Shown: one piece after another, positions 2,869-64,000 of the stretch | Position numbering within the stretch: the stretch's first letter is position 1 | How the letters are laid out: each line of letters starts with the position of its first letter | Assembly: GCF_041530365.1 (NCBI RefSeq) | Contig: NZ_CP168034.1 | Span: forward strand, 310,001-374,000 | DNA: 64,000 nt | Direction: 5' to 3' | Origin: Capnocytophaga sp. ARDL2 | GTDB lineage: Bacteria > Bacteroidota > Bacteroidia > Flavobacteriales > Flavobacteriaceae | The notes under the pieces: generated by a model | Told to the model about the DNA's origin: nothing | What the model saw: only the letters and a program-made list of their open reading frames with translations | The model's database searches: none | Made by a program: the position numbers and the translations under genes

Positions 2869-3627
2869 TTATTTCTTTTTAAAAGCGTTTAATGCATTTT
2901 TAGTAAAATCTGATAAAACTAATGTTCCTGAAATTTCGGCACGTTCAAGCAACAAAGTATCCCAATGTTCTGTATCTTTCCACAACACCTTTTTCATTTC
3001 AAATAACGCCTCAGGATTGAACGAACTCAATTGTGTAACAAAGACATCTAACGAAGCATCCATCGTCTCGTAGGAGTCAAATAAACGTGTAAATAACATG
3101 TTTTTGTGTGCCCATTGAGCAGTTTTCCATTCCGTAGCCTCCAAAGTCATTTCTGACATCGCTGGCATACCAATTTTTCTACTTACCGCTGGCTCGATAA
3201 CAAAAGGCCCGATGCCTATTGCCAATTCAGATAATTTGATAGCTGCGTCGGTATGAGCAAAGGTATAATCGCAAGCAGCAACAATACCTACTCCTCCACC
3301 AACGGTTTTTCCTTGTATGCGACCTACGATGATTTTATTGCTTTTACGCATCGCATTGATGACATGAGCAAAACCACTGAAAAAAGCTCTTCCTTTTTCG
3401 ATAGTATCTACTTGCAACAATTCGTCAAATGAGGCTCCAGCACAAAAGGCTTTTTCTCCTTCACTTTTCAAAACAATTACCGAAACTTGGCTGTTATCGT
3501 TTAGTTGTGTAATCGCCTCCGTCAATTGTTTCAATTGCGAACTTGGAAATGAATTGCTCTGTGGGTGAAAAAATGTAATCGTTGCAACCGCTTGATTTAT
3601 TTCTACATTTACAAAAGGATTCATCAA
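2869..3627 (-). CDS. Enoyl-CoA hydratase/isomerase family protein
   Basis: A crotonase-fold protein of 252 residues, the normal size of single-domain enoyl-CoA hydratases. The oxyanion-hole segment is FCAGASFDEL (about 61-70), and a second glycine-rich segment GGGVGIVAACD lies near 108-118. LSELAIGIGPF near 130-140 carries one acidic residue at the usual active-site position. It probably hydrates or isomerises an acyl-CoA in fatty-acid or branched-chain amino-acid degradation (a methylglutaconyl-CoA hydratase-like role is possible), but the substrate cannot be read from the sequence. It lies 3 bp downstream of the UspA gene on the same strand, so the two probably form one transcript. The start MMNPF could equally be the second Met. 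Confidence 0.88.
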   Translation of the reverse strand: MMNPFVNVEINQAVATITFFHPQSNSFPSSQLKQLTEAITQLNDNSQVSVIVLKSEGEKAFCAGASFDELLQVDTIEKGRAFFSGFAHVINAMRKSNKIIVGRIQGKTVGGGVGIVAACDYTFAHTDAAIKLSELAIGIGPFVIEPAVSRKIGMPAMSEMTLEATEWKTAQWAHKNMLFTRLFDSYETMDASLDVFVTQLSSFNPEALFEMKKVLWKDTEHWDTLLLERAEISGTLVLSDFTKNALNAFKKK

Positions 3628-3630
3628 AAA

Positions 3631-4455
3631 TTAGATTTTAAAAGTGATAATGTTTTTCGTTGAATGATTTACTACATCTTCGCTGATACTTCCGTTGATA
3701 AAACGCGATAAACCTGTGCGACCGTGTGTACCCATTACAATCAACGAAGAATTGATTTTTTCAGCGTAATTTGACAATCCTTTTTCGATATCAAAATCAT
3801 TGTAAACGGCAAAAGTATAATCCTCAACTTCCAAGTCTTTCAAAAACTCTTGAATAATTGTTTCTGCCTCGTGTGTAGGCTTGAAACTATTAGGTGTATT
3901 GACCATCAAAAAGTGAGGTTTTGCATTACGCTCTGTCAAGAAATGTAAAATTTTGTTATAAGCTTCTGGATTTTTTTCCAAGAAATCTGATGCAAAAACC
4001 ACATTGTCAAAACTGATATCCGTCTGGTCTCCTTTGATTACCAACACTGGTACTTGCGAAGCACGAACAATTTTTTCGGCATTTGATCCGATAAACATTT
4101 CTTTCAAACCACTGGCTCCATAAGATCCCATGACAATCAAGTCAATAGCATTTTCGTTACTTACCGCTTCCACCTCGTTGAAAAATTTACCTAAGCGAAG
4201 TACTACCGAAACGGTCAACCCTTCCAACGCTGGATTTTTAGCAGATTCGAGAAGTTTTTGCTCAGCCATTTTTTTAAACAACATCACTTCAGGCAAATCA
4301 AACCCTGGCTGAATCATATCTACTGTTTCATGAGGTAAATCAATGACATGCATCAAAATAATTTCAGTATCATATCCCTTTGCAACCGATGCCGCCGCTT
4401 TGATGGCATTGTTTGCTTGATCTGAAAAATCTGTAGGCACTAATATTTTTTTCAT
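3631..4455 (-). CDS. Universal stress protein with two UspA domains
   Basis: A cytoplasmic protein of 274 residues made of two tandem Usp domains (about 1-140 and 148-274), the usual arrangement in Bacteroidota. It begins MKKILVPTDFSDQANNAI. Both domains carry the ATP-binding loop G-2x-G-9x-G(S/N): GSYGASGLKEMFIGSN in the first and GTHGRTGLSRFINGS in the second, so nucleotide binding by both is likely. The family takes part in stress adaptation; no specific partner is visible. It is followed after 3 bp by the enoyl-CoA hydratase gene. Confidence 0.92.
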   Translation of the reverse strand: MKKILVPTDFSDQANNAIKAAASVAKGYDTEIILMHVIDLPHETVDMIQPGFDLPEVMLFKKMAEQKLLESAKNPALEGLTVSVVLRLGKFFNEVEAVSNENAIDLIVMGSYGASGLKEMFIGSNAEKIVRASQVPVLVIKGDQTDISFDNVVFASDFLEKNPEAYNKILHFLTERNAKPHFLMVNTPNSFKPTHEAETIIQEFLKDLEVEDYTFAVYNDFDIEKGLSNYAEKINSSLIVMGTHGRTGLSRFINGSISEDVVNHSTKNIITFKI

Positions 4456-4549: not shown

Positions 4550-6238
4550 TCAATTATGAAATTTTACCCATTGAGTCCCTGTACACCCTTCGAACTTCCC
4601 ATTATTAAAACGAATAGTTCCTGCTGTAGTACTGTCACAAGTGTCCGAATTGCCTACTTTTACCCCTCCGTTTACATCCAATTTTGCTTTTGGATTCATC
4701 ACTCCAACTCCTACGTTTACACCTCCTTCAACTCCTGTTGCTTTTTCATTTCCTAAGACTATTGTGTTACTCAGCAATGAATGATTATCTATACCATTAC
4801 CTATTGCAATGGAATTATTGTATTTATCAGAATTTTCTAAAATTTCGTTCATAACTTCTTTAGAATTTCCGATAAAGATATTTCCATTTCCTGTTTTAGA
4901 AGAAGGTCTTGCCCCAGCGTCGTATCCTATTCCTATTGTATATTTATTCGTTGTATGATTTGAATCTTTCAAAGCGTATTTCCCTATCGCTATATTGTAT
5001 TCTCCTGTAGTCAACACTTGCAATGCATCTTTTCCTATAGCTATATTATCATTTCCAGTTTTATTATTAACTAATGTTTCATTTCCAATAGAAATATTAC
5101 CAGAACCTGTTGTATTTTCTTGAAGTGATTTATACCCCAAAGCTATATTTTCATTCCCTGTAGTATTATATTGCATAGAGTAATTCCCAAGGGCTACATT
5201 TTTCTTCCCTACAGTATTATCTCTCATAGAAGTAACTCCAAAGGCAAAGTTATCCTCTCCAGTAGTATTCAGTCTCAACGCTTCAAATCCTACGGCAAAG
5301 TTTCTAGACCCTATAGTATTGGTTTTCATAGCATCAGGACCAATAGCAACGTTGTTTTTTCCTGATGTGTTAGAAGACAATGATTCTGGCCCTATAGCTA
5401 CGTTGTTTCCTTCAGTATTCTCATGAAGTGCTCTCAAACCTATCGCTACATTATTATCCCCTACTTTATTCTTATACATAGCATTCACTCCAATTGCCAC
5501 ATTATTTTTTCCTGTAGTATTTTCTCTCAGAGCATTTGTACCCAATGCCATATTTCCAGATCCTGAGGTATTTAGCAGCATTGCATGCCCTCCCAAAGCC
5601 ATATTATTTTCTCCAACATTATCACGCATAGCATTTTGCCCTATTGCAATCAATCCAGAACTGGTTTTGTTGTTTTTCAAAGCATTCAACCCAATAGCTG
5701 TATTATTAGATCCTGTTGTATTTGCGACCAATGCACCATTTCCTAATGCTGTATTATTAGACCCTGTTGTAACAGCTTTCAAGTTTCCAGGACCAATGGC
5801 TACATTGGCACTACCTGTACCTAAACTTGTCCCATTCTGTCCAACCCCCGCATCAATCGAAACGTGATTGTTGGTACCTACATAACGCACATCCACGTGT
5901 TTGTACTCAATCAAACGCATCCATTGGTTCAATGATGCATCCCAATAGTAATATCCGGCATCTGTAACCAACGAATATTGTCCGGCTCTATCTACTACAG
6001 GCATATCATCTATCAAAAATGTCATCAATGAATGTTGAGCTGTTGTCAAACCTGGCGTCATCGCCTTCATTTCAGCAGCAGTAATTCTTGGTACTAATAC
6101 CCCTTTTGCTGTTTCAGTAGCCAAGGCATTGATATCTAAAGTTGCATTTGGAACTTCTTTATTGATTCCTACTCTTCCTTCTTGTGCAAAAACATAACCT
6201 CCAACTAACATAGAGGCTAATAAAATTGATTTTCTCAT
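4550..6238 (-). CDS. Secreted protein with YadA-head-like beta-roll repeats
   Basis: The 562-residue protein has a signal peptide (MRKSILLASMLVGGYVFAQ), a segment common in Bacteroidota tail-fibre-like surface proteins (RVGINKEVPNATLDINA; VPRITAAEM), and then roughly 20 consecutive repeats of about 17-18 residues of the form TGSNNTAIGxNALxxNT. This resembles the left-handed beta-roll of trimeric autotransporter heads. The C-terminus reads VGVMNPKAKLDVNGGVKVG and ends TQWVKFHN. There is no YadA-type membrane anchor, no chaperone-of-endosialidase domain and no obvious T9SS C-terminal domain, so how it is displayed is unclear. It is probably a trimeric adhesive or structural fibre. It stands alone with its own terminator. 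Confidence 0.75.
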   Translation of the reverse strand: MRKSILLASMLVGGYVFAQEGRVGINKEVPNATLDINALATETAKGVLVPRITAAEMKAMTPGLTTAQHSLMTFLIDDMPVVDRAGQYSLVTDAGYYYWDASLNQWMRLIEYKHVDVRYVGTNNHVSIDAGVGQNGTSLGTGSANVAIGPGNLKAVTTGSNNTALGNGALVANTTGSNNTAIGLNALKNNKTSSGLIAIGQNAMRDNVGENNMALGGHAMLLNTSGSGNMALGTNALRENTTGKNNVAIGVNAMYKNKVGDNNVAIGLRALHENTEGNNVAIGPESLSSNTSGKNNVAIGPDAMKTNTIGSRNFAVGFEALRLNTTGEDNFAFGVTSMRDNTVGKKNVALGNYSMQYNTTGNENIALGYKSLQENTTGSGNISIGNETLVNNKTGNDNIAIGKDALQVLTTGEYNIAIGKYALKDSNHTTNKYTIGIGYDAGARPSSKTGNGNIFIGNSKEVMNEILENSDKYNNSIAIGNGIDNHSLLSNTIVLGNEKATGVEGGVNVGVGVMNPKAKLDVNGGVKVGNSDTCDSTTAGTIRFNNGKFEGCTGTQWVKFHN

Positions 6239-6401
6239 TTCAAAATTTTTTACTAGACAAAATTACTCTATAAATTTATTATAGAGCTCTATCTTCACAT
6301 AATTTTTTCTTAAATACTTCATTATTTTCGTCTAACACTCAATTCAATTTAAAAATTTATCTCTTAGTTGTTTATATTTCATTTTTCTCTACCTTTTCTG
6401 T

Positions 6402-6858
6402 ATGAAAATTGAAGTGACTATCATCAAAGGATATATCGCTCAACTACCTAAAGGCAGACAAGTGTCGATTGAAAAATTACGAAGCATTCTAAAAAACAAC
6501 CTACTCAATGACTTTGTTGAACAACTGAGCGATGGAATGATTGGCTATGTGGTTCCTCATTCTATCTATCCAAAAAAATATCATTGTACGCCTGAGTTGC
6601 CGTTGCCTCTTATCAATATTGCTTTTCAGAAAAATTTTATCGCCTTATACCATATGGGAGTTTATGCAGACTCTAAACTATTGGAATGGTTTACCAACGA
6701 ATATCCTAAACATTGCAAAACTAAATTGAATATGCGAAAAAGTTGCATCCGTTTCAAAAAAAATGAAAAATATCCCCTACCTCCTCATCACCGAACTATC
6801 TAAAAAAATGACTGTAGAACAATGGATTGAACTATAGGAAAGCAATTATGTAAAATAA
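6402..6858 (+). pseudogene. Broken DUF1801 (YdhG-like) gene
   Basis: The first 123 residues look like an intact DUF1801 protein (IIKGYIAQLPKGRQVSIEKL; PLPLINIAFQKNFIALYHMG; KTKLNMRKSCIRF). At about 6771 the frame shifts and the reading ends in an unrelated tail (YPLPPHHRTI, stop 6801-6803). Continuing in the +1 frame from 6772 gives the expected family ending, IPYLLITELSKKMTVEQWIEL, then a TAG at 6835-6837 where a Tyr codon is expected, then ESNYVK and TAA at 6856-6858. The gene thus has one frameshift and one nonsense codon. The family is small and cytoplasmic with unknown biochemical role. A truncated 133-residue product may still be made. Confidence 0.75.
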
Positions 6859-6898
6859 AAAATTTCCTAAAAGATTCTGATTTCTTTTAGGAAATTTT
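6859..6898. terminator. Bidirectional terminator with a 16-bp stem
   Basis: Arms 6859-6874 and 6883-6898 are perfectly complementary around an 8-base loop, with AAAA and TTTT at the outer ends. It separates the converging DUF1801 remnant and the S9 peptidase gene. Confidence 0.88.
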
Positions 6899-6900
6899 GC

Positions 6901-8802
6901 TTATAATGTCTCTTTTAACCAACGGAAAAACTCTCCTTGCCAGATGTGTGCATTTTGAGCTTGCAGCACCCAGTGGTTTTCGTGAGGGAAATACAAAAAT
7001 CTCGATTTGATTCCTCGCAATTGTGCGGCTTGAAAAGCCTCTTGCCCTTGTCCAATTGGCACACGATAATCTTCTCCTCCATGGATTACCAAAATAGGCG
7101 TGTTCCATTTATCCACCATTTTTTGTGGGTTGAATTTGCTATAAGTTTTCATTGCAGCGGCGTTGTTTTTTTCCCAATAGGCCCCTCCTGCATCAAAATT
7201 TGTAAAGAACACTTCTTCTGTAGTTCCGTACATCGACTCTAAATTGAATACTCCACAGTGTGAAATAAATGTCTTGAAACGATTGTTGTGGATTCCCGCC
7301 AAATAATACACCGAATATCCTCCGTACGACGCTCCTATTGCACCCAGACGGTCTTTGTCCACATACGATTCTTTGGCTACTTCGTCAATAGCTGTCAAAT
7401 AATCGTCCATTACTTGTCCGCCCCAATCCAATGAAATTGCCTCATTCCACTCTACTCCAAATCCTGGCATTCCACGGCGATTAGGTGCTACTACCACATA
7501 TCCTTCTGCCGCCATCAATTGAAAATTCCAACGGAATGAATAAAACTGTGACAATGCCGACTGTGGCCCTCCTTGACAATACAACAAAGTTGGATATTTT
7601 TTTGACGCATCATAGTTTGGTGGCAAAATCACATATACCAACATTTGTTTTCCGTCGGTAGTAGTTACATATTTGCGTTCAACTTTGCTCTTTGCAATGT
7701 TTTTGTAAATGGTATCGTTGGCTCTCGAAATGCGGTTCCATCTTTTCTTTTTCAAATCGTAGGCATACACCTCATTTGCTGTGTTGAAATCTGTACGAGT
7801 TACCACTATTCTATCTTTGGCAAATCCTACCAAACCTGTAATGTCAAAATTGCCTTTGGTCAATTGTTTTACAGCAGTTGAATTACCATCTACTGGGTTA
7901 AATCCTATTTCAAACAACTGTACTGTACCATCAATCGGAGCGGTAAAATAGATTTTCTTTCCATCTTTTGCCCAGATATAACTATTAACCGTTCCGTCCC
8001 ACAAAGCGGTCAGATTTTTATCTACATCATTGATACGAACAATCAAATCATTTTTATCAGCTTCGTATCCATCGCGTTTCATTTGCAACCAAGTCAAATG
8101 TCCGTTTGGCGAAAACAAAGGATGTGTATCGTATCCCAAATTGTATTCGGTAAGATTTTGAGTTTCTTTGGTTTGAATGTTATACGCATACAAATCTGTA
8201 TTGGTACTCAAGGCATAATCTGTACCTGTCAACTTTTTCGAAACATAAATAATCTGCGTACCATCTGGCGACCAAGTATAATCTTCATTTCCTCCAAATG
8301 TTTTTTGAGGTGAATGAAACGGTTGGTCTTTTAAAATATCGGTTTTTTCGCCCGATTCTTTATCAGTAACTACAATGTGATTGAAAGTACCGTCGGTGTA
8401 TGTATCCCAATGTCTGTAATCCAAACCATCGAAAATATAGGCTTCGGACTTGGTCATTTCGGGATAATAATCCTTTCCTAAAACTTTTTCAACTTTTACT
8501 GTTTCTACGGCGATTTCGTGAGTACCTTTAGGAGAAACATTTTTGCTTTTCAACTCTTTTGGATATTCGTCCAATTGTTTGAATTTTTCCCCATCTACAC
8601 TCGTCATCCAATAAGTGCTGGTATAGGTCAATTCCTGCACATTGGGTGTAGAAACTTTGTAATACACATATCGTTCGTCATCCGAAACACCCAAGGCACT
8701 CACTCGCCCCAATTTCCACAGTGTTTCTTTGGTCATTACTTGTTGCTGAGCTTGTACTGAAAGCGTCAGTAGTAATGCTGAAATTCCTATTATTTTTTTC
8801 AT
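6901..8802 (-). CDS. S9 family peptidase (prolyl oligopeptidase / DPP5-like), secreted
   Basis: A serine exopeptidase of 633 residues, exported to the periplasm. I chose the start at 8802 because MKKIIGISALLLTLSVQAQ is a clean signal peptide; an upstream GTG at 8835 would only add 11 charged residues. The N-terminal half is a beta-propeller of PD40-like blades (for example YTWSPDGTQIIYVSKK). The C-terminal alpha/beta-hydrolase domain holds the nucleophile in GASYGGYSV (about residue 490), the Asp in GGEDYRVP and the His in PHENHWVL. It resembles dipeptidyl-peptidase 5-like enzymes used for peptide nutrition in Bacteroidota. It lies alone, 120 bp downstream of gpmI on the same strand. Confidence 0.92.
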   Translation of the reverse strand: MKKIIGISALLLTLSVQAQQQVMTKETLWKLGRVSALGVSDDERYVYYKVSTPNVQELTYTSTYWMTSVDGEKFKQLDEYPKELKSKNVSPKGTHEIAVETVKVEKVLGKDYYPEMTKSEAYIFDGLDYRHWDTYTDGTFNHIVVTDKESGEKTDILKDQPFHSPQKTFGGNEDYTWSPDGTQIIYVSKKLTGTDYALSTNTDLYAYNIQTKETQNLTEYNLGYDTHPLFSPNGHLTWLQMKRDGYEADKNDLIVRINDVDKNLTALWDGTVNSYIWAKDGKKIYFTAPIDGTVQLFEIGFNPVDGNSTAVKQLTKGNFDITGLVGFAKDRIVVTRTDFNTANEVYAYDLKKKRWNRISRANDTIYKNIAKSKVERKYVTTTDGKQMLVYVILPPNYDASKKYPTLLYCQGGPQSALSQFYSFRWNFQLMAAEGYVVVAPNRRGMPGFGVEWNEAISLDWGGQVMDDYLTAIDEVAKESYVDKDRLGAIGASYGGYSVYYLAGIHNNRFKTFISHCGVFNLESMYGTTEEVFFTNFDAGGAYWEKNNAAAMKTYSKFNPQKMVDKWNTPILVIHGGEDYRVPIGQGQEAFQAAQLRGIKSRFLYFPHENHWVLQAQNAHIWQGEFFRWLKETL

Positions 8803-59604: not shown

Positions 59605-60207
59605 ACCCGTTGTGCATTATGAAATAAACAAAAAAAGTTGTTTATTTAACTGAAAATCAGTATATTTAGTTCGCTAAAACAAATCAAAAATGAACAACTT
59701 AGGACAAATCGAAGATTCAATAAAGTTAAATATACGAAAGAATTTTAGAGGTTTTAAAAAAGTTTTTACCTTATCAAAGGAGAAAGCCAAAAATGAGTGA
59801 TTTAGAACTTGTGAATTTGAATTTAACTGCTGAATATTTAAGTATTGATAGTGAAATGTAACTGTTTAGAAAACTGCCTAATTCATTGAAAACCAAAATA
59901 GAAAGGAGTGTTTACAACAAAAGAAAACGAAATCTTTTTTATCATATAAATCAGATTAGGGAAAAACTTTACTTATTTAAGAAAAAGAGGAAAAAAATCG
60001 AAACATTATTTTGACTTCGTCAAATCTTCAATTTCGCAGTTATGTGATCAATTTATGATTAAAAGGAATTATGCAAAATCATTCAACGGTTTTAAAACAC
60101 GAATTATCAGTAAAATAACTGCTTTAACCTTAATTCAATACATTAACAAATTTGTATTAAAAAAGGAAATAAATAAAAGCAAGTATAATTTAAAATGCAC
60201 AACGGGC
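59605..60207 (+). mobile_element. Internally deleted IS982-type element
   Basis: 603 bp with ends ACCCGTTGTGCA (59605-59616) and TGCACAACGGGC (60196-60207). The transposase begins at 59690 (MNNLGQIEDSIKLN in its damaged frame) and resembles the intact copy at 32123-33001, but the segment between QIREKL and YLFKKKRK, which contains the first two catalytic Asp residues, is missing. Further stops (for example after SEM near 59860 and after TLF near 60012) are present. It is non-autonomous but both ends remain. Its right end lies 23 bp before the first double-glycine peptide gene. Confidence 0.85.
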
Positions 60208-60230
60208 ATTAATAATTAAATTTGTAAACA

Positions 60231-60419
60231 ATGAATTTAAACAAATTAAATATTACTGAGTTGAATGTTCAGGAGGTATTAGAGGTAGAAGGTGGTAGAA
60301 AATTTTTAAAAGAAATTGCTATCTTTGTTCTTGAAAAATGTCTTGAAAACGTTCACTTATTTGCTAGTCCAAACAACGAAAGATTTGTATTAGGACATGC
60401 CGGAGGCGGAAGACCATAA
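60231..60419 (+). CDS. Double-glycine-leader peptide 1 (bacteriocin-like precursor)
   Basis: 62 residues. The leader MNLNKLNITELNVQEVLEVE ends in Gly21-Gly22, the cleavage site used by C39-peptidase ABC exporters. The mature part would be 40 residues, starting RKFLKEIAIFVLEKCLENVH and ending GHAGGGRP, with one Cys. The leader is a diverged form of the two further copies at 61553 and 63272. A hairpin follows (60430-60461) and then a CPBP protease gene. The promoter seen before the other two peptides is missing here because the IS remnant occupies that place. Confidence 0.8.
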   Translation: MNLNKLNITELNVQEVLEVEGGRKFLKEIAIFVLEKCLENVHLFASPNNERFVLGHAGGGRP

Positions 60420-60429
60420 ATTTTTTTAA

Positions 60430-60461
60430 ATGGCTGTTTAGATAACTAAATAGCCGTTTTT
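60430..60461 (+). terminator. Attenuator hairpin behind peptide 1
   Basis: GGCTgTTTAG-ataa-CTAAATAGCC followed by GTTTTTT, 8-10 bp before the CPBP gene. It probably lowers transcription of the downstream gene relative to the peptide. Confidence 0.75.
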
Positions 60462-60468
60462 TACTATT

Positions 60469-60957
60469 ATGAAGAAAATATTTGATTTACTGGATGTATA
60501 TTTACCTAAAAACAACATTCTAAGATTTACTGCTATATTTATTTTCATCACTTTAGTTTCAATAGGAACAAGTTATTTTTTGGATGCTATTTTTACGGGA
60601 AGTGTTGTAGAAATAAGAAACATCAACGAAGAAAAAAATATATTCGTATTGTTTTTAGGATTGATAGTATTTGCTCCTTTTTTTGAAACTCTAATATTTC
60701 ATTGGATACCAGTTTTTCTGTATTCTTACTATAAAATAAATTCAAAATACGATTTATTGTTCATTTTTGTTTGTTCTATAATTTTTGGTATTTTACACGG
60801 AGTTAATATTGTAAATATTTTATCTGCGGTAATTGTAGGCTTTTTATATCTATTATTTACAATGTATTATGAGTATAAAGGTAAAAATTACTTTTTTGTT
60901 ATTGCATTTTTGCATCTTTTCAATAATTTATTAGCTTTTCTATACTATATTTTGTAA
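60469..60957 (+). CDS. CPBP (Abi) family intramembrane protease
   Basis: 162 residues with about five membrane segments. The metalloprotease motifs are present in the short Bacteroidota form: FAPFFETLIFHWIP near 68-81 (single Glu instead of Glu-Glu), FGILHG near 107-112 and HLFNN near 151-155. CPBP proteins in bacteriocin loci act in self-immunity or in precursor maturation; here it directly follows a double-glycine peptide, so one of these roles is likely. It is followed 10 bp later by the first HlyD fragment. Confidence 0.82.
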   Translation: MKKIFDLLDVYLPKNNILRFTAIFIFITLVSIGTSYFLDAIFTGSVVEIRNINEEKNIFVLFLGLIVFAPFFETLIFHWIPVFLYSYYKINSKYDLLFIFVCSIIFGILHGVNIVNILSAVIVGFLYLLFTMYYEYKGKNYFFVIAFLHLFNNLLAFLYYIL

Positions 60958-60967
60958 ATGTGAATCT

Positions 60968-61372
60968 ATGAAACTAAAAATCTACCCACTCCTCCTCTTC
61001 TTTTTGTTCATAGCCATTGGAGTTTTATTCATCGTAGAAGTACCTGTTTCCGTTTCTTCTCGTGGGGTGATAAGGTCTCAATCCGAGAATACGCCAATCG
61101 TTTCGGCGGTGAGTGGTAGGGTGGTTTTCAACAAGTTGCAGAAAAACAACCAAGCCATACAGAAAGGAGATACTTTGCTCATCGTTACTACCGAGCAATT
61201 GGACACTCAAAAAAGCCTTACCCATAGCCAAAGTGTAGATTTTCAAGCTCAATTATCAGACCTTTCTAAATTGGTCAATGGTAATTACTCGGGTTTGCAA
61301 ACGGGACTTTATCAACGAGAGGTTTCTGCGATGCAGGAGAGAATCGCACAGGTGCAGTCGCAGTTGGCATAG
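60968..61372 (+). pseudogene. HlyD-type export adaptor, 5' fragment 1
   Basis: 134 codons: cytoplasmic start, one membrane segment (LLLFFLFIAIGVLFIVEVPV), the first half of the lipoyl/barrel domain (SRGVIRSQSENTPIVSAVSG) and the beginning of the coiled coil (AMQERIAQVQSQLA), then TAG. Complete HlyD adaptors for peptide ABC exporters have about 370-430 residues, so two thirds are missing. The sequence 3' of the stop does not continue the family. It is nearly identical to the fragment at 62690-63094. A full-length copy probably lies outside the window. Confidence 0.8.
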
Positions 61373-61604
61373 TTGTTTCATTCTCTACCAGTTTTTCACA
61401 AACTCACATAGTTAAAATTTAGTTAAATACATTTTTTTTTTTTTTACATAAAAAAAATTTAATATAGATTTGCACCCAAGAAGAACAAAAGTGCACAAAA
61501 TATTTTTCTTATGAGTACAAAAAATAAAAATTAATAATTAAATTTGTAAACAATGAATTTAAACAAATTGAATGTTACTGAGTTGAATGCTCAGGAAATG
61601 AAAA
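60991..61604 (+). repeat. Direct repeat, copy 1 (HlyD fragment + promoter + peptide leader)
   Basis: About 614 bp nearly identical to 62713-63323. It covers most of the HlyD fragment, its 3' non-coding tail, the TAGATTTG promoter and the leader codons of peptide 2 up to about codon 17. Identity ends exactly where the leader gives way to the variable GG/mature region. Confidence 0.9.
61465..61472 (+). promoter_or_regulatory. Promoter element of peptide 2
   Basis: TAGATTTG (TAnnTTTG) lies 80 bp before the peptide start. An inverted repeat TGCAC...GTGCA follows at 61471-61495, and a 7-codon open frame MSTKNKN starts near 61511 in the leader. Confidence 0.65.
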
Positions 61605-61714
61605 CAACCGACGGAGGAATCTTGCCTGTCATAGCTGTTGCTGTTGCAGTAGTTTATGTAGCAAGTACTGTTCATGGATTAGCCAATGGGAAGAAATTCA
61701 ATGGACAGCCATAA
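61553..61714 (+). CDS. Double-glycine-leader peptide 2 (bacteriocin-like precursor)
   Basis: 53 residues: leader MNLNKLNVTELNAQEMKTTD ending Gly21-Gly22, then a 31-residue mature peptide starting ILPVIAVAVAVVYVASTVHG and ending KKFNGQP. The mature part is strongly hydrophobic with a basic tail, as in pore-forming class II bacteriocins. The start codon is preceded by AAATTTGTAAACA, identical to the other two copies. A hairpin follows and then two genes of unknown function, which are candidates for immunity. Confidence 0.85.
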   Translation: MNLNKLNVTELNAQEMKTTDGGILPVIAVAVAVVYVASTVHGLANGKKFNGQP

Positions 61715-61736
61715 TACTCTACTAAACGGTTAGTTT

Positions 61737-61770
61737 AAAAAAAACACTTCTTTTTTCGAAGTGTTTTCTT
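61737..61770 (+). terminator. Attenuator hairpin behind peptide 2
   Basis: AAAACACTTC-ttttttc-GAAGTGTTTT, 14 bp before the next gene. Confidence 0.8.
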
Positions 61771-61783
61771 TATTTTTTGAAAT

Positions 61784-62125
61784 ATGTACAAAAAAGATTT
61801 TATAAAAAGAAATATCGATGCTTTTTTAGAAGCGTTAACTATAAGAATTACGGGAGTGGAAATAGAGGATAAAGAAACTGTTTTATCTGATATGGCAAAG
61901 AAATATTTTGGAAAAGAATTGTGTTTTTTTACCGAGACATCGGCTGATCTTTTAATAAACGAATACAGTTGTGAAGATTTAGAATTAATAGTAGCACTAT
62001 TAGAAAATTCTTCAAATCAAAATACTCAAAAATGTATTGATCTATTGGAGTATATCAATAAAAATCACACCGTTTATTCTTTTGAAAGAGAAATGAAATT
62101 GTCTAAATTGAAAAATTACATTTAA
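61784..62125 (+). CDS. Hypothetical 113-residue protein in cassette 2
   Basis: No membrane segment or signal peptide. Charged, probably all-helical: FIKRNIDAFLEALTIRITGV at the start and LELIVALLENSSNQNTQKCI in the middle. No family is recognised. Its position between a double-glycine peptide and a membrane protein suggests a helper or immunity role, which is inference. It is followed after 2 bp by the membrane-protein gene. Confidence 0.65.
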   Translation: MYKKDFIKRNIDAFLEALTIRITGVEIEDKETVLSDMAKKYFGKELCFFTETSADLLINEYSCEDLELIVALLENSSNQNTQKCIDLLEYINKNHTVYSFEREMKLSKLKNYI

Positions 62126-62127
62126 AT

Positions 62128-62679
62128 ATGAATAACAAAAATATAGCTATTTTATTAATAGCATCTAAAACGTTAGACTTAATCTCAACATACTTAGTTG
62201 ACAAAACTCTTTCAACAGAAACGAGCATTTGGGTAAGTCGTTTTAATTTTGGTTGGAGTGGTTTTATATTAGTGAATATTATTTTTGTATTGTTTTTAGT
62301 TTTTTTTCTACAAAAAGTAAACAAAAATACTAAAGTTGTTGAAGAACTAGAAAAAAATAAAACCTTTAATAGTTTTAAAGAATATTTTAATTATATTCTG
62401 TTGGAAAGTAATACCAATAAAAGCTTTATTTATAAATTGTTATTTCAAAAAATTAGACTGTCTATTTTTACATATTTTTTTATTTATGCTCTTTCATATT
62501 CCATAATAACAATGAGTTTTATTGTGTCCTTAAGTAATTTTATGATTTATTTTGATATTTACGATTTATCTCATCTTGAAGATGACTTCTTAGGTCTTTT
62601 GTTGTTTATAATGAATATTTTTTGTCTTATTTATTTTTTTACAAAGCATATTTACAGACGGTATTTAAGATTTAATTAA
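62128..62679 (+). CDS. Hypothetical membrane protein in cassette 2
   Basis: 183 residues with four hydrophobic segments (about 5-20, 38-62, 113-140, 155-176) separated by a Lys/Asn-rich polar loop. AT-rich codon use stronger than in the housekeeping part of the window, suggesting acquired DNA. No family recognised. Small multi-span membrane proteins beside class II bacteriocins are often immunity proteins; this is the likeliest role but unproven. It ends 10 bp before HlyD fragment 2. Confidence 0.65.
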   Translation: MNNKNIAILLIASKTLDLISTYLVDKTLSTETSIWVSRFNFGWSGFILVNIIFVLFLVFFLQKVNKNTKVVEELEKNKTFNSFKEYFNYILLESNTNKSFIYKLLFQKIRLSIFTYFFIYALSYSIITMSFIVSLSNFMIYFDIYDLSHLEDDFLGLLLFIMNIFCLIYFFTKHIYRRYLRFN

Positions 62680-62689
62680 TGATTTTGAT

Positions 62690-63094
62690 TTGAAAAACAC
62701 AGTATATAAAATCCTCCTCTTCTTTTTGTTCATAGCCATTGGAGTTTTATTCATCGTAGAGGTTCCTGTTTCCGTTTCTTCTCGTGGGGTGATAAGGTCT
62801 CAATCCGAGAATACGCCAATCGTTTCGGCGGTGAGTGGTAGGGTGGTTTTCAACAAGTTGCAGAAAAACAACCAAGCCATACAGAAAGGAGATACTTTGC
62901 TCATCGTTACTACCGAGCAATTGGACACTCAAAAAAGCCTTACCCATAGCCAAAGTGCAGATTTTCAAGCTCAATTATCAGACCTTTCAAAATTGGTCAA
63001 TGGCAATTACTCGGGTTTGCAAACGGGACTTCATCAACGAGAGGTTTCTGCGATGCGGGAGAGAATCGCACAGGTGCAGTCGCAGTTGGCATAG
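62690..63094 (+). pseudogene. HlyD-type export adaptor, 5' fragment 2
   Basis: 134 codons from a TTG start, nearly identical from codon 9 onward to the fragment at 60968-61372, including the terminal TAG after QVQSQLA. The first eight codons differ (LKNTVYKI), showing that the repeat begins just inside the gene. Only the membrane anchor, half of the lipoyl domain and the coiled-coil start remain, so an export function of its own is unlikely. Confidence 0.8.
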
Positions 63095-63323
63095 TTGTTT
63101 CATTCTCTACCAGTTTTTCACAAACTCACATAGTTAAAATTTAGTTAAATACATTTTTTTTTTTACATAAAAAAAAATTAATATAGATTTGCACCCAAGA
63201 AAAACAAAAGTGCACAAAATATTTTTCTTATGAGTAGAAAAAATAAAAATTAATAATTAAATTTGTAAACAATGAATTTAAACAAATTGAATGTTACTGA
63301 GTTGAATGCTCAGGAAATGAAAA
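62713..63323 (+). repeat. Direct repeat, copy 2 (HlyD fragment + promoter + peptide leader)
   Basis: Matches 60991-61604 with few substitutions and small length changes in the T-run. It ends in the leader codons of peptide 3. Confidence 0.9.
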
Positions 63324-63400
63324 ACGTTGAAGGTGGTGCTATTCCTCTAATTGTTTGGGTAGCTGCTGCGTTTTTTGCTGGAACTTTTACAGCACGATAA
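63272..63400 (+). CDS. Double-glycine-leader peptide 3 (bacteriocin-like precursor)
   Basis: 42 residues: leader MNLNKLNVTELNAQEMKNVE with Gly21-Gly22, then a 20-residue mature peptide AIPLIVWVAAAFFAGTFTAR, almost a single membrane-spanning helix with a terminal Arg. The leader is identical to that of peptide 2 for the first 17 residues. Preceded by a TAGATTTG element (about 63182-63189) and a 7-codon frame MSRKNKN. A strong terminator follows. Confidence 0.82.
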   Translation: MNLNKLNVTELNAQEMKNVEGGAIPLIVWVAAAFFAGTFTAR

Positions 63401-63404
63401 AAAA

Positions 63405-63440
63405 CAAAAGTTCTTGGTTTAAAAACCAAGAACTTTTTAC
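63405..63440 (+). terminator. Terminator or attenuator behind peptide 3
   Basis: AAAGTTCTTGGTTT-aaa-AACCAAGAACTTTTT, a long perfect stem with a U-tract, directly after the peptide stop codon. Confidence 0.9.
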
Positions 63441-63456
63441 ATATTATCATACACTA

Positions 63457-64000
63457 ATGAAGATATTATCAACTTTACTAACCGTAAGATTTCGCAAACT
63501 CTTGAATAAAAACGATAAAACAGCCGTAGTTTTATTGTTACTATTCTATTTTGCAATAGCATTTGGGGTTTTTCATCAATTTGAAGAATTAGGGAGTTGG
63601 TTTTATTTATTGTTTGTAGATGTTTTGGTGTATCATTTTAAAAGACAGGATGATAGATTATTGAAAATTCATAAAAATTATAAGAAAATTATTTTTATTG
63701 AATATCTTATTTACTCTTTTCCTTTTTTGTTGATTTTGCTTATAAAACAACATTTTTTGGCATTAGGAATATTGATGATTGCATTTTGGATTTTGCCTTA
63801 TTTACCTAAAATTCAAATGAAAACAATCAAATTGCCATTTGAAAGATTTGACCCTTTTTGGCATATTATTTTTAGAAAATATCATCTATTTTTTATTTAC
63901 ATCGCACTTTTGATTTTGAGCGGTATTGCTATTCATCTTTCAAATCAAAATTTACTGGTTGTTTTGTTTGGTAGTGTTGTGATTATTTGTTGTTTACCAG
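63457..64000 (+). CDS. Multi-spanning membrane protein, 3' end outside the window
   Basis: Open for 181 codons to the window end. It starts MKILSTLLTVRFRKLLNKND and has hydrophobic segments at about 24-40, 48-58, 86-103, 108-124, 150-166 and 169 onward. The pattern (basic amphipathic start, then pairs of membrane helices) resembles permease subunits of ABC exporters found in Bacteroidota bacteriocin loci, but no decisive motif is visible. It is the cargo gene of cassette 3 and a candidate for export or immunity. Confidence 0.65.
   Translation, partial: MKILSTLLTVRFRKLLNKNDKTAVVLLLLFYFAIAFGVFHQFEELGSWFYLLFVDVLVYHFKRQDDRLLKIHKNYKKIIFIEYLIYSFPFLLILLIKQHFLALGILMIAFWILPYLPKIQMKTIKLPFERFDPFWHIIFRKYHLFFIYIALLILSGIAIHLSNQNLLVVLFGSVVIICCLP

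Follow-up and report, generated by a model that had tools for sequence, protein, structure and literature searches.

The stretch of Bacteroidota DNA analyzed here (the window: 64,000 nt, positions 310001–374000 of a single-contig genome of 2,508,668 bases) ends within an array of genes for small peptides with double-glycine (GG) leaders. This array is probably a polymorphic, modular class II bacteriocin locus with several toxins, in which 5′ fragments of the adaptor gene hlyD (hlyD′) would be both the scar of a duplication and an arm for recombination. Judged by its sequence, the locus has the features that carry this reading: an exporter adjacent to the precursors, a characteristic repeat anatomy, identical joints, steps in identity, recurrence in other genomes, and a cassette shared between species with borders of the recombination type.

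Cassettes, precursors and exporter

The array extends beyond window position 64000, and genome positions 365001–384000 were analyzed as stretch L002 (window position = L002 position + 55000). In total it comprises four cassettes, with five GG precursors and three hlyD′ copies. An earlier note, made from the window's letters, had described an array of three peptides; three is the number in the window, but the whole array is larger. The cassettes follow one plan, with a promoter region, a conserved leader, a variable mature peptide and one or more putative immunity genes, all on the forward strand. Cassettes 1–3 terminate in hlyD′, the first 134 codons of hlyD, and cassette 4 leads into the full-length gene.

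A dedicated C39 peptidase-ABC exporter and its accessory protein adjoin the precursors. Full hlyD (genome 376581–377672; L002:11581–12672), the C39-ABC gene (genome 378186–380333; L002:13186–15333) and a TolC-like gene (genome 380342–381685; L002:15342–16685) lie 2.6–7.7 kb beyond the window end, where the earlier note had expected a full-length HlyD and a C39-peptidase ABC transporter. The C39 domain (378189–378584, 119.6 bits) was the sole match in the genome at E ≤ 0.001 and lies inside this locus, which excludes the case, foreseen in that note as fatal to its reading, of a genome with no peptidase-ABC exporter. The ABC protein passes the peptide cleavage/export model TIGR01193 (529.4 versus a cut-off of 523.85). 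Its N-terminus, MLVKQHDIKDCGAAC, and the segments HHFVVI and DPAYGK presumably carry the Cys, His and Asp of the C39 active site. HlyD passes PF13437, with the HlyD_3 match at residues 212–311, and the outer membrane protein matches TIGR01844 with E 2.7e-38, under the cut-off. The HlyD adaptor, C39 peptidase-ABC and TolC-like channel would act as one exporter that recognizes the shared leader, cleaves after Gly-Gly and secretes the different mature peptides, and this exporter may serve all of them. Carriage of the locus by a plasmid is unsupported (no near match among 72,556 plasmid records), as is carriage by a virus (no HlyD relative in viral contigs).

The five precursors are 42–62 aa long, each with a GG-type leader. 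Peptides 1–3 do share the leader MNLNKLN(V/I)TELN and a GG site, as the earlier note had observed. At the DNA level, peptides 2–4 agree fully over 45 nt around the start codon, and peptide 1 departs from them there at two positions. Peptide 1 (60231..60419; L002:5231–5419) has 62 aa, with GG at residues 21–22 and the C-terminus LGHAGGGRP. Peptide 2 (61553..61714; L002:6553–6714; 53 aa) and peptide 3 (63272..63400; L002:8272–8400; 42 aa) are hydrophobic and fall in the lactobin A/cerein 7B family (TIGR03949, 29.4 and 30.7 bits, respectively, cut-off 21.5). Peptides 4 (genome 375559–375744; L002:10559–10744) and 5 (genome 376345–376530; L002:11345–11530) both belong to cassette 4. Fewer than two cysteines are present in four of the five mature parts; peptide 4 has two. 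No modification enzyme was recognised among the locus genes.

Past the leader, DNA identity between mature parts is 13–50% per ungapped 30-nt window, and they are not alignable. To that extent the mature parts are unrelated, as had been claimed, but at the protein level the claim is too strong: peptides 2 and 3 match the same family model, and peptides 1 and 4 align at 55% over 56 aa, leader included. Peptides 1 and 5 have different leaders, yet both end in LGH(A/V)GGGRP, possibly a mature motif common to a subfamily of these peptides. In the protein database, the exact peptide was borne by one contig each for peptides 1 and 2, two for peptides 3 and 4, and 12 for peptide 5. Cassettes that come and go could give such uneven numbers, but we do not rely on them, since small genes are often not called.

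The cargo genes differ from cassette to cassette. Cassettes 1 and 4 encode CPBP (Rce1-like) membrane proteins of family PF02517: putative immunity protein 1 in cassette 1 (60469..60957; L002:5469–5957; E 1.4e-6, 28.9 bits, cut-off 22.4) and its counterpart in cassette 4 (genome 375754–376338; L002:10754–11338). Cassette 2 encodes a 113-aa putative immunity or accessory protein (61784..62125; L002:6784–7125) and a 183-aa putative immunity protein (62128..62679; L002:7128–7679) that is hydrophobic by eye and probably a membrane protein. For the 113-aa protein, no Pfam match exceeded the cut-off, and neither the protein database (its own sequence only, on 6 contigs) nor the fetched loci contained a relative; for the 183-aa protein there was no Pfam family and no relative in the fetched loci. 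Cassette 3 encodes a 296-aa ABC permease-like membrane protein (63457..64000, on to genome 374347; L002:8457–9347) and an ABC ATPase (genome 374340–374993; L002:9340–9993). Thus the different gene sets described earlier are there, with one correction: the multi-span membrane protein of cassette 3 precedes and overlaps an ABC ATPase gene.

No Pfam or NCBIfam model matched the cassette 3 permease. It is named for its place and for a relative beside an ATPase behind a Capnocytophaga C39 exporter: in that one locus, relatives of the ATPase and the permease (42% and 31% identity, respectively) lie shortly behind C39-ABC. Among the matches listed for the ATPase, the lantibiotic protection model TIGR03740 came second (E 1.1e-25, under its cut-off). 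The CPBP genes and the ABC pair fit immunity genes next to a precursor; the cassette 2 proteins are without a family. The cargo would most likely confer self-immunity, through the CPBP proteins (cassettes 1 and 4), the 113-aa protein with its membrane protein (cassette 2) and an ABC pump (cassette 3), and the secreted peptides would kill cells that lack it. The GC content is 24–26% in the cargo, 40–41% in hlyD and C39, and 36% in the window.

Repeats, joints and cassette borders

The hlyD′ copies, two of which the earlier note had already recognized as HlyD 5′ fragments closing cassettes 1 and 2, lie at 60968..61372 (copy 1; L002:5968–6372), 62690..63094 (copy 2; L002:7690–8094) and genome 374974–375378 (copy 3; L002:9974–10378). 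Copy 1 consists of the first 134 hlyD codons followed by TAG at the common joint; copy 2 has a TTG start and the same joint; copy 3 overlaps the 3′ end of the ATPase gene. All three depart from hlyD at the same base, between TTGGCA and TAGTTG. The unit of hlyD′, intergenic region and leader is 97.9% identical over 615 nt between copies 1 and 2, 98.0% over 607 nt between 1 and 3, and 96.8% over 650 nt between 2 and 3, a similarity far beyond chance. Compared with full hlyD, copies 1, 2 and 3 are 97.5% (403 nt), 97.9% (379 nt) and 94.8% (407 nt) identical. Identity drops to background between about codons 15 and 30 of the precursors, near the GG codons, and again at or within the first 12 hlyD codons. 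The encoded N-termini reflect the latter step, with (M/L)KNTVYKIL in copies 2 and 3, MKLKIYPLL in copy 1 and MKLKIYQLL in the full gene. The first hlyD codons therefore travel with the cassette.

From this anatomy we infer a history of duplication followed by exchange. The original tandem duplication would have spanned the 5′ intergenic region to a point within hlyD. Because it ended inside the gene, stubs would arise and the last copy alone would keep the whole of hlyD. Leader/promoter and hlyD′ would then flank the cargo as homology arms, through which homologous recombination with DNA from other strains could replace, add or remove cassettes.

The intergenic repeat (61373..61552; second copy at 63095..63271) bears promoter-like elements. 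Two TAnnTTTG boxes, which we take to be the Bacteroidota –7 box, stand at –88 and –14 from the ATG of peptides 2–4; the mean density of such boxes in the region is 0.33 per 200 nt. Cassettes 2–4 carry the TAGATTTG box. Peptide 1 retains the –14 box only, and upstream, in place of the –88 box, lies a degenerate IS982-type insertion remnant (59605..60207, no strand assigned) with terminal inverted repeats ACCCGTTGTGCATT / AATGCACAACGGGC (13/14 matching). The remnant occupies the site expected for the upstream part of the cassette 1 promoter repeat, and the intergenic repeat starts only at 60208. A piece of it, 60055–60216, gave a weak NCBIfam match to IS982 transposases (E 0.0011, far under the cut-off) and belongs to no Pfam family. 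Each cassette is presumably transcribed.

A hairpin follows each of the three peptides in the window, again as described before: at 60428..60459 between peptide 1 and its cargo gene (L002:5428–5459) and at 61741..61767 behind peptide 2 (L002:6741–6767), both terminator/attenuator-like and on the forward strand, and at 63406..63437 behind peptide 3, a forward-strand feature position predicted on the minus strand only (L002:8437–8406). There is also one 3′ of peptide 5 and none 3′ of peptide 4. The number of terminator-like rows in the region, 5 versus 2.5 ± 2.0 in shuffles, is unremarkable as a total; it is their placement that supports the hairpins.

Recurrence and probable exchange in other genomes

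For comparison, 398 genomes of the window's genus (about 1.8–6.5 Mb) were searched with the hlyD of one of them, G029, and 58 had a match at E ≤ 1e-15. At least four of these 58 carry a separate N-terminal hlyD′ in a peptide array; 4–5 candidates were scored per genome, so the count is a lower bound. The four are the window's own genome (G000), with three stubs of 134 codons, and G029, G200 and G294, with a single stub each of ∼130, ∼275 and ∼275 codons, respectively. Behind hlyD′ in G029, positions 8153–8458 repeat the 5′ flank of the locus (5993–6296) at 84% identity, and flank copies also stand behind hlyD′ in G200 (79% over 461 nt) and G294 (82% over 503 nt). The duplicated unit is therefore 5′ flank, leader, cargo and hlyD′. 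The stub contig of G294 ends in a transposase-like gene (HTH_38 match), presumably of the IS30 type, and full hlyD lies on a separate contig behind another cassette; the two probably form one array. Four further candidates were not counted as arrays: G114, G269 and G396 have single hlyD genes that are split or frameshifted, and G279 has an hlyD–C39 deletion fusion. All that G157 has of hlyD is a 74-aa piece containing two stops.

The clearest sign of exchange comes from G029 and G200. Cassette A of G029 (two GG peptides and a CPBP gene) and cassette 2 of G200 are 90.6% identical over 1347 nt. In 60-nt blocks, identity is 0.82–1.00 at 6377–7754, then 0.62–0.73 at 7755–8054. Upstream, at 6201–6320, it is 0.45–0.50 by global alignment; the best local match in the intergenic region is 73% over 296 nt. 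The borders thus lie ∼60 nt into hlyD′ on the right and just upstream of the leader on the left, much as in the window. This profile is the footprint that would be expected of cassette exchange by homologous recombination. The shared cassette is the first of two in G029, followed by the stub, and the second of two in G200. There, it is followed by an hlyD with internal stops, whose first ∼172 codons run into the last C39-ABC codons (L110:5545–6176, minus strand), so the exporter of G200 is largely deleted at this place but two cassettes persist.

These comparisons agree with two further claims of the earlier note. Cassettes would be exchangeable, in that related genomes have different cargo between a similar leader and hlyD, and they could be shuffled, in that one cassette occupies different array positions in two species. 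A fixed set of cassettes whose peptides have no homology to bacteriocins, named there as an outcome that would speak against the idea, is contradicted by the differing cassettes (a comparison between species) and by the TIGR03949 matches of peptides 2 and 3.

Among database fragments of hlyD, we found 20 matches, of which P0001 (a 2,512-bp contig; cluster of 9 sequences) was used; 14 others continue as HlyD, break off at a frameshift or contig end, or are ambiguous. P0001 has an hlyD start of the cassette 4 type (Q7, L11), is otherwise like the copy 3 stub (Q58, D113, R123) and ends at the same residue. This suggests that other DNA of the species joins a cassette 4 end to a stub. The P0001 cluster has a blank source field, a hint that it includes fragments from the window itself. 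The remaining fragments, P0013, P0015, P0018, P0019 and P0020, are HlyD N-terminal pieces on short contigs that pass into non-HlyD tails after ∼82–104 codons, as read by eye. Two of these tails were each found with two different HlyD N-termini, as further stub arrays would give; the fragments may come from such arrays.

An exporter tree of 71 sequences (G029 entered twice, G200 and G294 outside it; quick method, midpoint root) split into two groups, both with SH-aLRT 100. The window's C39-ABC falls among 38 rows that include Capnocytophaga, Chryseobacterium and Sphingobacterium; G029 falls among the other 33, 30 of which come from the window's own genus. By hlyD identity, G200 and G294 would go with the G029 lineage: their genes are 64–80% identical to that of G029 and 36–41% to the window's. 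Stub arrays may thus have arisen at least twice, and the window's exporter may have reached this genus from another.

In G029 and G294, the intergenic repeats include 86–90-nt tandem repeats in 3.5–4.5 copies (L081:8348–8661; L111:885–1200, 3366–3770). A divergent TPR-HTH type protein stands beside such tandem repeats (Pfam-tested in G029; similar proteins read in G200 and G294). No tandem repeat of this type was found in the window's array.

Alternative readings and known systems

Several observations weigh against a multi-toxin bacteriocin locus that diversifies at hlyD′. TIGR03949 is passed by only two of the five precursors, and peptides 1, 4 and 5 pass no model. PF10439 stays under its cut-off for peptides 2 and 3 (15.1 bits for peptide 2, cut-off 27.1), and peptide 3 barely exceeds the class I lanthipeptide leader model NF038153 (22.9 versus 22). 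As for immunity, family searches found no resemblance of the 113-aa and 183-aa proteins to known immunity proteins, and structure prediction of the former from its one sequence gave a mean pLDDT of 40.6, with no predictable fold. The EExxxR motif of CPBP proteins is degenerate in cassette 1 (ETLIFH); cassette 4 has EEIMFR. The NCBIfam matches listed for the cassette 3 ATPase are all under cut-off, with an ABC-F ribosomal-protection model first. Stub arrays are also rare. None was found in the 20 hlyD-bearing genomes of genus g34 (173 sampled; 11 candidates scored per genome) or the 31 of family f5 (296 sampled; 6 candidates per genome; overlapping the g34 set), and in an order-wide sample, where 31 of 395 genomes had a match, stubs appeared in G000 and G029 only. 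Nor did any of 41 named loci (Chryseobacterium, Capnocytophaga, Sphingobacterium and others; one hlyD each) show an extra hlyD self-match, although in seven of them hlyD is within ∼1.4 kb of the left end of the compared stretch, and in L032 within 3 kb, so that upstream stubs could be missed. In 11 of these 41 loci, a simple pattern found a precursor starting MNL upstream of hlyD, in many cases followed by a second GG peptide. Most of the mature parts are different from one another (those of L018 and L020 are the same, those of L017 and L024 nearly so). Given the rarity of hlyD′ arrays, cargo can vary from locus to locus without stubs. Finally, the DNA-level comparisons between genomes were all between species.

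The most serious competing explanation, though an unlikely one, is that the upstream cassettes serve mainly as a bank of immunity genes, like orphan contact-dependent inhibition (CDI) modules, and that only some peptides are made and exported. There is a precedent: in orphan CDI toxin/immunity pairs, the immunity gene is reported to be expressed though the toxin is not (PMC3150448). The replacement of the –88 box of cassette 1 by the insertion remnant would fit such a bank, as would the persistence of two cassettes in G200 beside a largely deleted exporter. But the upstream peptides all retain an intact open reading frame (ORF), start codon, leader and GG site, and cassettes 2–4 keep both promoter-like boxes. 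Less probable again is that the peptides are secreted signals (pheromones) and the cargo processing or sensing proteins. GG peptides and C39 exporters serve signalling too, and CPBP proteins can be processing proteases. Models for BlpC and ComC match one G200 and one G029 peptide weakly, far under their cut-offs, and the TPR-HTH protein is a divergent neighbor of the G029 array, with a similar protein read beside the G200 and G294 arrays. Yet we recognised no regulator in the window's locus, peptides 2 and 3 have a hydrophobic character and the TIGR03949 bacteriocin type, and a signal would hardly be expected to come as five different peptides with swapped cargo. The ABC pair of cassette 3, with its sub-cut-off lantibiotic protection match, also weighs against a signal, though the ABC-F model scores higher.

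We regard it as highly improbable that the hlyD′ frames are functional truncated adaptors or regulators under selection. Each of the three is an open frame with a start codon, copy 3 shares its first bases with the end of the ATPase gene, and private codon changes past codon 12 are 6 synonymous to 2 non-synonymous, versus a neutral expectation of ∼74% non-synonymous. These counts are small, however, and the same pattern is equally expected if the copies diverged within functional hlyD genes of donor strains or are kept alike by gene conversion. Moreover, residues 135–363 are lost, including the HlyD_3 match, and cut points vary between arrays (134, ∼130 and ∼275 codons). Marginally less credible still is a plain tandem duplication whose cargo diverged in place. 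The identical joints do indicate that the units descend from one duplication, and some mature peptides are distantly related. But separators that are 97–98% identical enclose cargo genes of different families without DNA similarity, and the cassette shared by G029 and G200 is clearly more similar than its flanks. On that contrast and that footprint, divergence in place was rejected. Least of all do we credit collapsed or misjoined repeats. Near-identical repeats invite misassembly, and the downstream tRNA synthetase gene has a broken frame, but the whole genome is one contig, hlyD′ copies 1–3 have private differences, and three other genomes have the same anatomy at other cut points. An expandable bacteriocin array thus remains the reading we prefer.

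Among known systems, lactobin A/cerein 7B (class IIb) bacteriocins offer the closest peptides, with a GG leader, a short hydrophobic mature peptide and an adjacent C39 exporter. Here, in contrast, peptides 1, 4 and 5 fail the model, the host is Gram-negative, the exporter has three parts and the cassettes are separated by hlyD′. The earlier note had likened the locus to blp loci. Streptococcal blp (pneumocin) loci combine several GG peptides with genes for CAAX-protease and small membrane proteins that are regarded as immunity genes; they diversify by recombination, also within leaders, with transposase-derived sequences proposed as the foci (PMC4860687). The likeness holds for the multiple GG peptides, the CAAX-type (CPBP) putative immunity genes and, as far as that account goes, recombination-driven diversification. 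It fails for regulation: blp loci have quorum-sensing blpC/blpH, whereas from the lipoyl ligase family gene to the tRNA synthetase gene we recognised no quorum-sensing regulator or pheromone gene, blp-type or other. Their foci are also described as transposase-derived, not as exporter-gene fragments.

Replacement of structural and immunity genes within an otherwise conserved operon is known from another bacteriocin. That case, in the excerpt available, concerns a single operon, and a repeated array of exporter-gene stubs is not described in it. Orphan cdiA-CT/cdiI modules and MafB-CT cassettes form toxin/immunity arrays that are bounded by pieces of a conserved gene and whose modules interchange (PMC3150448, PMC4287609). 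There, as here with hlyD′ and the leader and the G029/G200 footprint, the cassettes have in common part of a single conserved gene at which they can recombine. The repeated piece in those systems is part of the toxin gene and the toxins are large proteins, whereas in this locus it comes from the exporter adaptor gene and the toxins would be short secreted peptides, each with its own leader. Bacteroidetocins are GG-leader peptides secreted in Bacteroidetes by a bacteriocin peptidase/transporter. They are class IIa-like with at least two cysteines, their neighbors are a transmembrane protein and a thiol oxidoreductase, and an immunity protein is not evident (PMC6671954). The leader and the route of secretion are shared, but in that comparison our peptides are not class IIa-like, since four of five mature parts have fewer than two cysteines. 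No thiol oxidoreductase was recognised among the locus genes.

GG bacteriocins, cassette shuffling and orphan toxin arrays are therefore already known; what sets this locus apart is that the shared piece of homology is a stub of the exporter adaptor gene. No description of a bacteriocin array with repeated hlyD fragments was found in searches of an open-access library that lacks most subscription journals. At odds slightly below even, we tentatively propose a recurring design for cassette acquisition in Bacteroidota peptide-toxin loci: the incomplete adaptor gene that follows every cassette would be a standing homology arm, by which a foreign peptide/immunity cassette could be added while the own cassette and exporter are kept, so that the arsenal expands and contracts at hlyD′. 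Bacteroidota are known to have class II bacteriocin candidates (PMC12648078). In our judgement, their secreted peptide toxins outside the gut are little studied, and the locus addresses the question of how a Gram-negative bacterium builds a multi-peptide arsenal around one exporter. With its defined cassettes, clear recombination borders and candidate immunity genes, it makes the pairing of peptide and immunity gene, and the gain of cassettes, directly testable in laboratory strains. The hlyD′ stub is also a simple sequence signature for finding further arrays.

Other genes at the locus are as follows. Downstream of the TolC-like gene is a class I tRNA synthetase gene (PF00133), by our reading ileS. 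In a comparison for adjacency of ileS to the lipoyl ligase gene, 20 loci gave no ileS match within the ∼1.5 kb of flank covered, but the window's own locus was negative too, so the result carries no information. The tRNA synthetase gene (L002:16847–19000) appears to shift frame near its start, with an 81-aa ORF without a synthetase match followed by the frame that matches PF00133; because the gene is essential, this may be a sequencing error. Between hlyD and C39-ABC, in the opposite direction, lies a 23S rRNA-IVP family gene (PF05635; L002:12684–13040, minus strand). G294 has a 120-aa protein that is clearly similar by eye (L116:2548–2910, plus strand) in the same gap and orientation. It seems that this gap received the same gene in both exporter lineages.

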